A stretch of 64,000 bases of DNA from the NCBI RefSeq assembly GCF_015169395.1, contig NZ_CP063458.1:5642001-5706000 (forward strand), read 5' to 3'. Below are positions 42,189 to 45,640 of this stretch, piece after piece. Origin of the DNA: Humisphaera borealis. Lineage in GTDB: Bacteria; Planctomycetota; Phycisphaerae; Tepidisphaerales; Tepidisphaeraceae. The notes under the pieces were generated by a model, which was given only the letters and a program-made list of their open reading frames with translations, was not told the DNA's origin and did not search any database. The position numbers and the translations under genes were made by a program. The stretch's first letter is position 1, and each line of letters opens with the position of its first letter.

Positions 42189-42404
42189 ATGCTTGCATCC
42201 TCCGATGTTGAACGTTTTCTCAAGGAATTGGCCGAGGTCTGCGCCCGGCATGGCGTTACCGTGATTGGGGGGTTCGACGGAAGAACAGCTGCCATCATGC
42301 GCGGCCAGCCGATCGACCTCGCCGATGGCCGGCTGGACCGTCTGATCGAAGAGGCACTGCGATCGTCCGACCCGGGGGTCGCTTCGCCGGAAACCTTCTT
42401 CTGA
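42189..42404 (+). CDS. Small conserved-looking hypothetical protein, 71 residues
   Basis: ATG 42189 with GAGGAAT upstream. The sequence (SSDVERFLKELAEVCARHGV, then TVIGGFDGRTAAIMRG) reads as a helix then a strand-loop, soluble and acidic. Divergent from glgP and 118 bases before the ESCRT-III-like cluster. No family recognised; coding is plausible but unproven. Confidence 0.5.
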   Translation: MLASSDVERFLKELAEVCARHGVTVIGGFDGRTAAIMRGQPIDLADGRLDRLIEEALRSSDPGVASPETFF

Positions 42405-42521: not shown

Positions 42522-43997
42522 ATGCGCGACACTCCCGATCCCAGCGTCCACCGCCAGCGACAGCAGCAGTTCGTCGCCCGAGCCCAGAAGATCCTGGAGG
42601 ACGAGCGATGCACCCTTGATACCAATGCCGGCCGTAAGTCGGTCGTCGGTTACTACCGCGACGTCACGCCCGGCGACAATGCGATCGGCGTCAAGCAGAA
42701 AATGATCGAGTTGGGCCTGTTCGACCGGGAGCTGCAGCGGAAAATGCCATCGGGGATGACGCTCGACATCACATTGTCGAGCAAAACGATCTTTGGCGGT
42801 AAACAGGCGGCGGGGCGGATGCGGGTGGTGACCTTGTCGCCGAACGAATCCCTTCTCAAAGGTGAGCCCGCCCGCCCCCTGAACCGCGACGAAGTCGCCA
42901 GGGCGTTGCAGTCGATGCCGCCTTCGTTGGGTGGCGTGCCGCAGACGGTCGTGCTGGTGAGTACTAGTGGCTTTGCCGGCGATGCCCTTGGCCTGGCCGA
43001 ACGCCGACCCGGCGGGCCTGTCATCCTTGCCGAGATCAACGACGCCGGCGGCTGGACCATCCATGCCCCACCCGGCTACGAGGACCTCGCCAGCCAGCTC
43101 GACCCCGAAACACTCAGTCAGAAGCAGGAACGCGTCCGACAGGAGATTGACGCCGGGGCAGACCTTTTCACCGGCGGCGTGTCAGCCGAGAAGGTGTCCG
43201 AGCGGTTACATCTTCCCCAGACTCTGGTGGAAGAGGTGCTCCGCGAACATGCCCAGAAGAACCCGGGCTTGGCGACGGGCACCTTTGAAGGCAAACTGGT
43301 GCTATACCGAGCGGGAATGTCGGCCCCGGCCGACGCCATTGGAGAGAACATGCCGTTCTGGGAAAAAGTCAAAGGCATCTTCGGTCGCGGCGAGGAAAGC
43401 CGTGATAAGAAGGTCACCCGCCTGGCACAGGAAAAAGCCCTGCTCGGCCAGCAGCGCGACAAGGCGTACACCGAGATCGAGCTGGTCGAGAAGAAGGAGC
43501 AGGAGCTGACCAAGCAGTTCCCCGAGGCCACGCCACTGGCACAGAAGCGCATCGCGACCGAAATCAGCCAGCTCCGCAAGCGTGTCGAACGAATACAGCA
43601 GCTCGTCTCGACGATCGACAAGAAGATCAACATCATCGAAACCGGTGTGCACAACCTGGAGATGGAATCGCACCTCTCCAAGGAGAAGCTGGAATCGCTG
43701 GAAAGCGTGGCGACGGCGTCGGAAGAAGTCGATGTCGGCATGGCGACGCTCGACCAGCTCAACGAGCAGGCCGATTCCGTGAGCGTGGTCGGCTCGGAAC
43801 TGAGCATGGGCGCGAATGACGTCCTGGCGGAGCTGCAGGCCAAGTTCGCCGAGAAACCCGCCGCCGCGGCACAACCCGGCGAACGGACCACCACCGGCCC
43901 GACCAAGTCGCCGGCAACCGCCGAGCGGGCCACGAACACGCCCCCGCCCATCCCCGCCGAAAGGCGGAAGATGCCAGGTGCCGCCGAGCCGGGATGA
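42522..43997 (+). CDS. Winged-helix plus ESCRT-III-like coiled-coil protein
   Basis: 491 residues from ATG 42522 (MRDTPDPSVHRQRQQQFVAR). Three regions are visible. Residues about 1-175 are mixed alpha/beta (MPSGMTLDITLSSKTIFGG; PQTVVLVSTSGFAGDALGL). Residues about 205-270 read as a winged helix: ITE-type helices VSAEKVSERLHLP and TLVEEVLREHAQK followed by the hairpin ATGTFEGKLVLYR. Residues about 290-455 form long charged helices (RDKAYTEIELVEKKEQELTK; KRIATEISQLRKRVERIQQL; SLESVATASEEVDVGMATLD) with a basic first hairpin and acidic later helices, the ESCRT-III layout. The tail is Pro-rich (TNTPPPIPAERRKMPG). Winged helix followed by ESCRT-III is the CHMP7 order. First of three related genes. 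Family call is inference. Confidence 0.65.
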   Translation: MRDTPDPSVHRQRQQQFVARAQKILEDERCTLDTNAGRKSVVGYYRDVTPGDNAIGVKQKMIELGLFDRELQRKMPSGMTLDITLSSKTIFGGKQAAGRMRVVTLSPNESLLKGEPARPLNRDEVARALQSMPPSLGGVPQTVVLVSTSGFAGDALGLAERRPGGPVILAEINDAGGWTIHAPPGYEDLASQLDPETLSQKQERVRQEIDAGADLFTGGVSAEKVSERLHLPQTLVEEVLREHAQKNPGLATGTFEGKLVLYRAGMSAPADAIGENMPFWEKVKGIFGRGEESRDKKVTRLAQEKALLGQQRDKAYTEIELVEKKEQELTKQFPEATPLAQKRIATEISQLRKRVERIQQLVSTIDKKINIIETGVHNLEMESHLSKEKLESLESVATASEEVDVGMATLDQLNEQADSVSVVGSELSMGANDVLAELQAKFAEKPAAAAQPGERTTTGPTKSPATAERATNTPPPIPAERRKMPGAAEPG

Positions 43998-44074
43998 ACT
44001 TGCTGATTCGGATCTGCCGAGTGCCGAGCGGTCAACTAACCGCCAAAGTGTTTTTCCCAGCGTCTTCTCTGCGC

Positions 44075-44095
44075 ACTGCTTACTGCTTACTGCCT
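44075..44095 (+). repeat. Three tandem heptamers ahead of the second ESCRT-III-like gene
   Basis: ACTGCTT ACTGCTT ACTGCCT, ending 7 bases before the ATG at 44103, in the place of a ribosome-binding site. No purine-rich site is present. Such a tandem unit could change length by slippage and alter spacing. Confidence 0.6.
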
Positions 44096-44102
44096 ACTTT
44101 TT

Positions 44103-44717
44103 ATGGCCCTTCTCGACAAGATCTTCGGCAAGAAGGAAAAGACGCTCAGCGAGCTGTCCGCCGCCGAGCTTCGGCGGGAAGAGATCATGATCACGCGCGA
44201 GCGTGACAAGCTGTTCAAGAAGATCGAAGGCCTCGCCAAGGAAAAGCAGCACATCTTCCAACAGGGTGCCCAGCAGAAATCGCCGGAGCTGCGCAAGGCC
44301 CTGGCGATGCAGTTTGAACTCAAGACGCAGGAGCAGTTGCAGGTCGGCCGGCAACTGAACGTGCGAAGCAAAGAGCTTCTGACCGTAAGCCGGGTACGTA
44401 TTCTGAAGGAGAACGCCCCCAAGGTCAGCGGGGCGATGGGCCGGCTGAACCTCACGGAGAAGGACGTCGCGAAGATCAGCTCGCTGATCGAGGACGACGC
44501 CGTCACCGAAGACATGTACATGGAGCGGCTCAACGAGATGCTCGATCTCGGTGCCCAATCCGACAAGGACGCGCTGGGCCGCCAAGGCTTGACCTCTGCC
44601 GGCAACGAGCTGATGAGCATCTGGAACGACATGGACAAAGGCGACGTCGAAGAGAAGCAGGGGTTCGAGGAAGCCGACAAGGCCGTCAGAAACAAGCAGG
44701 CTTCGGCCGAGCCTTGA
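44103..44717 (+). CDS. ESCRT-III-like small helical protein
   Basis: 204 residues, entirely helical and charged. It begins MALLDKIFGKKEKTLSELSA, a short amphipathic/basic N-terminus like the membrane-binding start of Snf7/CHMP proteins. Long basic helices follow (RERDKLFKKIEGLAKEKQHI; SPELRKALAMQFELKTQEQL), then SGAMGRLNLTEKDVAKISSL and DMYMERLNEMLDLGAQ, which occupy the place of helix 4 in Vps2/Snf7 (NMDIDKV...). The C-terminus is acidic (DMDKGDVEEKQGFEEADK). Size (about 200) and N-basic/C-acidic polarity match ESCRT-III. It lies 105 bases after the winged-helix gene. It is not PspA/Vipp1 by obvious motif. Inference, needs profile search. Confidence 0.65.
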   Translation: MALLDKIFGKKEKTLSELSAAELRREEIMITRERDKLFKKIEGLAKEKQHIFQQGAQQKSPELRKALAMQFELKTQEQLQVGRQLNVRSKELLTVSRVRILKENAPKVSGAMGRLNLTEKDVAKISSLIEDDAVTEDMYMERLNEMLDLGAQSDKDALGRQGLTSAGNELMSIWNDMDKGDVEEKQGFEEADKAVRNKQASAEP

Positions 44718-44729
44718 AGACGTTTTCAA

Positions 44730-45012
44730 CCACGAAGGATCACGAAGCAGTTTTCCACGAATGGACACGAATGGGCACGAATGAAGAGAGGATTGAGCCG
44801 ACAAAACGCCATGAATGCCAGCACCGAAACAACGCGGCCGAGTGGGTCATGTTGGTACTGATCGCACCCTTCGTAGTCGCTGTCCGCTCGTGGATCTGGC
44901 TGAGCACGACTCTCAAACGAGCCTTTTCATAGTTCGGTCTGATTCGTGACTATTCGTGTTCATTCGTGGACAACCTATTCCTTCGTGAACCTTCGTGCTC
45001 CTTCGTGGTGAA
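44730..45012. repeat. Long inverted repeat with CACGAATG / CACGAAGG words
   Basis: Left arm about 44730-44785 (ACCACGAAGGATCACGAAG, then CCACGAATGGACACGAATG) and right arm about 44940-45012, whose reverse complement reads CACCACGAAGGAGCACGAAG and then CCACGAATGAACACGAATAG. Arms enclose about 155 bases. It fills the space between the second and third ESCRT-III-like genes. A 72-residue open frame crossing it is not supported. Confidence 0.8.
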
Positions 45013-45040
45013 CAACCGCCTTCTTCGACAAGGGTGACTT

Positions 45041-45640
45041 ATGGGCCTCTTCAAGAGCAAAGAAGAACGCAAGATCGAGCGCGAGATGAAGATCCGCGCG
45101 GGGATGCGGGCGATCGAGAAGTCGATCCGTCAGCAGGAGAAGTTCTCCGCCGACTTCGTCAAAAACGCCCAGCACGCCAAGAAGATCGGCGACGAGGGGC
45201 AGTACGTGTTCATCCGCAACGCACTCAAGAAGACCGCATCGGTCAAGAAGATGCTCGAGCGGCAGTTGCTGTCGATCAAAAACGCCATGCTCATCCAGCA
45301 GCAGGCGGCGGCGGGGGCGGAATTCGCCCAGTCGATGAACCTGATGGCCCAGGAGATCGGCCGCACGTTCGGCGAAATGGACCTGACCAAGACGCAGGTT
45401 CAGTGGGAGAAAGCCGTCGCCCAGGCCAGCAGCATGGAAGAGCGGATGGAAGTGTTCATCGACAGCATGGAGCAGACCGCGGGACAGACCACGTCATCGA
45501 GCGAAGCCGTCACCGACAGCGAGATCGACCGCATGATCATGGCCGACGTCTTGGCCGCCGAAAGCCAGGAGATGAGCAAGCTGGACGAGTTGGAAAGTGA
45601 AATCGCGAAGGAGCTGGGGGCGGTGAAGCAGAAGGATTGA
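45041..45640 (+). CDS. ESCRT-III-like protein, Vps2/CHMP pattern
   Basis: 199 residues with AAGGGTG upstream of the ATG. It starts MGLFKSKEERKIEREMKIRA, very like the MGLFG... start of CHMP3/Vps24. The N-terminal half is basic helices (MRAIEKSIRQQEKFSADFVK; IRNALKKTASVKKMLERQLL). Then AQSMNLMAQEIGRTFGEMDL, TQVQWEKAVAQASSMEERME and VFIDSMEQ follow the order of helices 3-4 in CHMP2/3 (a Met/Gln-rich region, then a helix ending in xxMEDxM). The C-terminus has EAVTDSEIDRMIMADVL, like the acidic EIDRIL segment of CHMP3, then LDELESEIAKELG, which loosely resembles an MIT-interacting motif. These are similarities I recall, not alignments run. Vps4-type ATPase not seen in the window. Confidence 0.7.
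   Translation: MGLFKSKEERKIEREMKIRAGMRAIEKSIRQQEKFSADFVKNAQHAKKIGDEGQYVFIRNALKKTASVKKMLERQLLSIKNAMLIQQQAAAGAEFAQSMNLMAQEIGRTFGEMDLTKTQVQWEKAVAQASSMEERMEVFIDSMEQTAGQTTSSSEAVTDSEIDRMIMADVLAAESQEMSKLDELESEIAKELGAVKQKD

Follow-up and report, generated by a model that had tools for sequence, protein, structure and literature searches.

An apparent bacterial ESCRT-III/Vps4 system encoded by a conserved gene cluster in the planctomycete Humisphaera borealis and its relatives

We describe an apparent bacterial ESCRT-III/Vps4 system, present in the planctomycete Humisphaera borealis and many of its relatives as a conserved gene cluster with a Vps4-like ATPase. The cluster lies in a stretch of 64,000 nucleotides (the window), positions 5642001-5706000 of a 7.19-Mb single-contig genome (G000:C1) whose near relatives are metagenome-assembled genomes (MAGs) of Phycisphaerales, and consists of three tandem open reading frames (ORFs) on one strand, here called genes 1, 2 and 3 (Table 1). 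It probably supplies the filament part of the system, whose likely activity is ATP-driven membrane constriction or scission; in archaea and eukaryotes, ESCRT-III proteins of this type sever membranes. A preliminary description, made by eye, had read all three products as candidate ESCRT-III-like proteins; this holds for the third in both sequence and predicted fold, and is not established for the first two. The tandem arrangement claimed there is present, as are all of the motifs that it quoted (MALLDKIFG, MGLFKSKEE, ALKKTASVKKMLERQLLSIK, SSMEERMEVFIDSMEQ and SEIDRMIMADVL), and at each of the 12 loci whose flanks suffice for a check (L001, L003-L006 and L068-L074) gene 1 is followed by gene 2 and then gene 3; these loci belong to the window genome's family and to other families of the class. 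Gene 3 occurs in 53 of the 198 genomes of the class and in 56 of the 392 from the phylum, nearly all matches being full-length open frames, and across the family its protein keeps 63-84% identity; given this identity, spread and intactness, the three ORFs are genes and not chance reading frames.

To place gene 3, 56 relatives gathered across the phylum were made into a profile, which was searched against all 177,635 PDB sequences. Up to E = 10 it found eight matches, all of them ESCRT-III proteins: CHMP3 (E = 5.5e-4), Snf7 (0.007) and CHMP2A (0.14), the alignment with CHMP3 covering the core (positions 13-167 of 202). An 18-sequence subset of the family, used as a control, gave nine matches, eight of them to ESCRT-III chains and one, late in the list, to FtsA; in reversed form these sequences retrieved no ESCRT-III chain from the PDB. 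Pfam Snf7 (PF03357) was matched by 29 of the 56 family members at E < 1 (best 2.7e-6), and distant members align across nearly the entire Snf7 model at 20.6-26.7 bits. The signal came from family profiles only, Pfam and PDB searches with single proteins being near-silent. PspA_IM30 (PF04012) has no match in the genome and is absent among the Pfam families listed for the gene-3 family; with Snf7 leading in Pfam, we rejected a PspA identity for gene 3, in keeping with the earlier impression that the three proteins look different from PspA and Vipp1. A HAUS1 match, seen in one of the 56 members, was discounted.

The AlphaFold2 (AF2) model of gene 3 contains helices at residues 7-49, 52-112, 115-147 and 159-198, with a predicted local distance difference test (pLDDT) score of 90-96 in the core and 46-77 in the arm, and displays the alpha1-alpha2 hairpin followed by an alpha3-alpha5 arm. 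Foldseek ranks 1-22 for this model are all members of the ESCRT-III superfamily, CHMP2A first and then Loki CHMP4-7, CHMP1B and CHMP3, and a slower structural aligner superposes it on Snf7 at 2.2 Å over 104 residues. The resemblance to CHMP2/CHMP3 noticed by eye is thus recovered by both the profile and the structural searches. Column conservation and the last model helix define an acidic, leucine-rich C-terminal segment, V-x-D-x-E-I-D-R-M-I ... L-x-x-L-x-x-E-I-x-x-E-L, which may be a Vps4-binding tail and whose spacing is not identical to MIM1. Hydrophobic-moment analysis of the N-termini gave values no better than shuffles and supports no amphipathic-helix claim. Because sequence and predicted fold agree, the assignment of gene 3 as a true Snf7-type ESCRT-III protein is well supported.

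The candidate motor of the system is a Vps4-like AAA ATPase, whose pairing with gene 3, although it takes in loci beyond the cluster, is the strongest result of the analysis. In distant classes of the phylum, AAA ATPases flank the gene-3 homologue, one of an upstream and one of a downstream type. The N-terminal profile of the upstream type (the P0004/P0006 family) matches the MIT domains of VPS4B (2cpt, E = 4.1e-4 over positions 7-83), VPS4A and SKD1 at full length, while also listing designed TPR repeats that are matched repeatedly over one short stretch; the AAA domain is matched at E = 5e-34, so that these proteins combine MIT with AAA. One member of the downstream type, P0007, scores 26.0 bits against Pfam Vps4_C, whose cut-off is 21.3. 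A search of the window's own genome for such an enzyme, which the preliminary description had proposed, found a downstream-type Vps4-like ATPase, P0008 (G000:C1:799722-800900, 393 aa), at a separate locus far from the cluster. It is 48% identical to the ATPase adjoining gene 3 in locus L086, and the top natural match of its profile in the PDB, at a weak E of 0.095, is 2mpk, which we take to be an MIT domain. Another gene of this genome (G000:C1:5168553-5169392, locus L089) encodes a Vps4/Cdc48-like AAA domain preceded by TPR repeats, with 41% identity to the ESCRT-linked ATPase in the AAA part; as the N-terminus of this protein is TPR and not MIT-like, it was set aside. A large gene near the cluster in distant classes (L078:12508-14463, minus strand; L076:6245-8254, plus strand) encodes a coiled coil and a repeat region that looks beta-propeller-like by eye.

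Gene 3 and the ATPase occur together and, in many genomes, side by side. With a class ATPase orthologue defined by E below 1e-100 (51 genomes, 49 of the 51 matches spanning nearly the whole length including the N-terminal domain), 49 of the 198 class genomes carry both genes, four gene 3 only, two the ATPase only and 143 neither. The six exceptions have estimated completeness of 58, 60, 79, 86, 88 and 94%. Across the 392 phylum genomes, the upstream-type MIT-AAA paralogue, which lies upstream of gene 3 in the distant classes, accompanies gene 3 in 42, with 14 carrying gene 3 only, two the ATPase only and 334 neither. Fisher tests give 4e-39 for the class and 8e-42 for the phylum, P values that overstate independence, as the tests ignore shared ancestry. 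In 26 genomes the ATPase gene directly follows gene 3 on the same strand, 28-2200 bp downstream, and their standing side by side is direct evidence that the two are functionally linked.

Genes 1 and 2 are best termed ESCRT-III-like partners whose membership of the family is unproven. All three proteins had been described as helical; in the first, the helical pattern is confined to the last ~170 ordered residues, which follow an alpha/beta domain and a winged helix. The latter (AF2 helices 198-211, 222-229 and 233-246, strands 250-255 and 258-263) is matched by Foldseek to the RPC39 winged helix (prob 0.99), by VIA to Zalpha domains (Z 8) and weakly by Pfam winged helix-turn-helix (wHTH) families. 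In the helical domain, a short helix at 279-288 precedes a hairpin plus arm (294-443), and in VIA the hairpin fits Snf7 (5fd7) at 1.0 Å over 82 residues and CHMP1B (6tz9) at 1.5 Å over 95. It also fits CHMP3, but bMERB, BAR and other non-ESCRT hairpins score equally. Foldseek lists CHMP1B, Vipp1 and Asgard ESCRT-IIIB for the gene 1 model, ranked below winged helices, and NCBIfam matches of gene 1 to SMC and Rad50 were dismissed as coiled-coil noise. The gene 2 family is related to the helical-domain family of gene 1 (hhalign prob 93.6, E = 2.1e-7), and an N-terminal M-x-L-x-x-[RK]-[IL]-[RK] plus hairpin plan recurs in all loci. Some loci hold two gene-2 paralogues, and in distant classes the winged-helix and helical parts of gene 1 are separate genes. 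Of the preliminary reading of these two proteins, their kinship and a plausible alpha0 and hairpin in the first have stood, and ESCRT-III sequence homology has not.

Besides the shared ancestry behind the Fisher values, several observations weigh against the reading of the cluster as the filament part of an ESCRT-III/Vps4 system. The curated Snf7 cut-off of 27.3 bits was reached by no gene-3 member whose bits were shown (maximum 26.7), and P0003 alone scores 7.5 bits (E = 4); no Foldseek match of its model passed E = 0.001, and unrelated long helical hairpins (SerRS, bMERB) reach a similar Z. P0008 matches Vps4_C below threshold (13.8 bits), its MIT signal is weak, and Pfam MIT was not found in its genome. 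When the C-terminal domain of gene 1 or gene 2 is used as a profile, the PDB yields only generic or designed coiled coils, hhalign gives no link from either to gene 3, Snf7 is absent among the Pfam families listed for both, and gene 2 has no Pfam match or informative PDB match. These last results favour the closest alternative, in which gene 3 alone is ESCRT-III and genes 1 and 2 are unrelated coiled-coil accessories (adaptors or a CdvA-like scaffold) working with it. We rate this as a serious contender that falls somewhat short of even odds, since the gene 1 model has alpha0 ahead of a long hairpin with an arm after it, the hairpin fits Snf7 and CHMP1B, and the N-terminal motif and hairpin plan are repeated at every locus.

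Other readings concern the system as a whole. Helix-rich, charged sequences of this kind could resemble ESCRT-III by composition only and be ordinary coiled-coil proteins, and many unrelated helical hairpins do score structurally; the lack of any ESCRT-III match for the reversed sequences, the exclusively ESCRT-III matches among the PDB sequences and the linked MIT-AAA genes make this very improbable. A divergent envelope-stress system of PspA/Vipp1 type, performing oligomeric membrane repair without an AAA remodeller, would share the superfamily fold, would account for the Vipp1 and PspA structures among the Foldseek matches and could fill a role left vacant in a genome lacking a PspA_IM30 match. 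It is nonetheless improbable, given a Pfam match to Snf7 and not PspA_IM30, PDB profile matches that are all CHMP3, Snf7 or CHMP2A, and a tightly linked Vps4-like ATPase. If the ESCRT-III assignment is accepted, the system might serve cell division as a Cdv-like replacement for FtsZ. ESCRT-III/Vps4 of archaea acts in cell division, and no tubulin/FtsZ-family match was found in the window genome or in 190 of the 198 class genomes; the absence is, however, class-wide regardless of gene 3, and division genes do not lie beside the cluster here. We regard this role as rather doubtful, and rejected a general FtsZ substitute because FtsZ is missing across the class irrespective of gene 3, which 53 genomes carry. 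The other eight genomes of the class, from families f16, f20 and f22, do match the tubulin/FtsZ family (E = 1e-8 to 1e-12); in none of these three families was gene 3 seen.

Returning to an ESCRT-III/Vps4 system, we propose that gene 3, as a CHMP2/CHMP3-type Snf7 subunit, would polymerise on the cytoplasmic face of the membrane through its alpha1-alpha2 hairpin, with the related helical products of genes 1 and 2 probably co-assembling or nucleating. Gene 1, with its winged helix, suggests a recruitment step of the CHMP7 kind, in which that domain could act as a recruiting module as in CHMP7/ESCRT-II. The Vps4-like ATPase, a partner by co-occurrence and adjacency, would extract subunits from the filament; both polymerisation and extraction are drawn here by analogy. 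Planctomycetota are known for internal membranes and FtsZ-less division, and division or internal-membrane shaping would be the likely work of the system, with repair a further possible role. More broadly, we lean towards the view that the Planctomycetota possess a complete ESCRT-III/Vps4 machine that has been maintained vertically and comprises several filament subunits, a recruiter of the winged-helix type and either one or two MIT-AAA motors. It would be a full ESCRT core beyond archaea and eukaryotes that either predates the split or crossed between domains early.

The remaining features of the locus touch this system less closely. By reading of the sequence, a glycogen phosphorylase gene lies upstream on the opposite strand and an exonuclease-like gene downstream; between the former and gene 1, a small ORF (42190-42404, about 71 aa, MLASSDVERFLKELAEVC...) could, judged by eye, be a small gene. 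A large, interrupted inverted repeat with TTCGTG-rich arms of 33 nt and 26 nt fills the space separating gene 2 from gene 3; its core pattern occurs five times in the window, each time within this space, and it looks like a miniature inverted-repeat transposable element (MITE) or a repetitive extragenic palindromic (REP) element. A solitary 3.2-kb contig (L007), placed in a Gemmatimonadaceae MAG but probably misbinned there from a planctomycete, bears a gene-3 homologue of 73% identity.

Table 1. Features of the cluster (positions in the window)
Feature	Position	Strand	Basis or remark
Gene 1 (P0001, 491 aa): alpha/beta domain at the N-terminus, then a winged helix, an ESCRT-III-like helical domain towards the C-terminus and a disordered, Pro-rich tail	42522..43997	+	AF2 model; conserved upstream of gene 2, 12/12 loci
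Winged helix of gene 1, about residues 192-263	43095..43310	+	AF2, Foldseek, structural alignment, weak Pfam wHTH
ESCRT-III-like helical domain of gene 1	43350..43874	+	AF2: alpha0 MPFWEKVKGIF, hairpin 294-335/338-388, then 393-426, 431-443
Gene 2 (P0002, 204 aa), helical, MALLDKIFG N-terminus, related to gene 1 C-terminal domain	44103..44717	+	hhalign to gene 1 family
Interrupted inverted repeat, gap between genes 2 and 3	44722..45016	.	Not shown to belong to the system
Gene 3 (P0003, 199 aa), Snf7-type ESCRT-III protein, CHMP2/CHMP3-like	45041..45640	+	Profile searches, AF2 model, Foldseek
Conserved C-terminal acidic/leucine-rich helix of gene 3, candidate Vps4-binding tail	45506..45619	+	Column conservation; model helix 159-198

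A 2024 survey holds ESCRT-III/Vps4 systems to be confined to archaea and eukaryotes; the pairing has been reported absent from bacteria. Ravi et al. (2024) report that bacteria occasionally have Snf7-clade genes close to PspA or AAA ATPases, and that Vps4-like ATPases occur in bacteria (PMC11237479); their transferred bacterial Vps4 has no adjacent snf7, unlike the planctomycete pairing, the word 'planctomycet' is absent from their text, and the main text describes no MIT-AAA/ESCRT-III cluster of this make-up (PMC11237479). Our literature search, which excluded preprints, found no paper on this planctomycete cluster, and prior knowledge may exist outside the literature searched. A conserved bacterial cluster of Snf7-type ESCRT-III with MIT-AAA would redraw the distribution map of the ESCRT machinery, and would offer a direct test both of membrane remodelling in FtsZ-less planctomycetes and of the exchange of an ESCRT core between domains.

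PspA and Vipp1 (IM30) are bacterial proteins of the ESCRT-III superfamily and have the same general fold (PMC8281802); they differ from gene 3 in belonging to another Pfam family, which was not detected in this genome, and in having no MIT-AAA partner gene of this kind. With eukaryotic CHMP2A/CHMP3 (Vps2/Vps24) and Snf7/CHMP4, gene 3 shares the core profile match, an MGLF-type start, the hairpin plus arm fold and a conserved C-terminal helix, whereas it is bacterial, falls under the Pfam Snf7 cut-off and ends in a tail that is a candidate MIT-interacting motif (MIM). Gene 1 recalls CHMP7 in coupling a winged helix with an ESCRT-III-like helical domain; CHMP7 has tandem winged helices, while gene 1 has one together with an alpha/beta domain, and sequence does not confirm its helical part as ESCRT-III. 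Like the archaeal Cdv and Asgard ESCRT-III systems with Vps4, the loci of the relatives combine several filament-type genes, a winged-helix component and a Vps4-like ATPase. Unlike those systems, distant planctomycete classes have two kinds of AAA ATPase flanking the ESCRT-III gene, and in the family of the window genome the ATPase has moved elsewhere and the winged helix is fused to the helical domain in gene 1.

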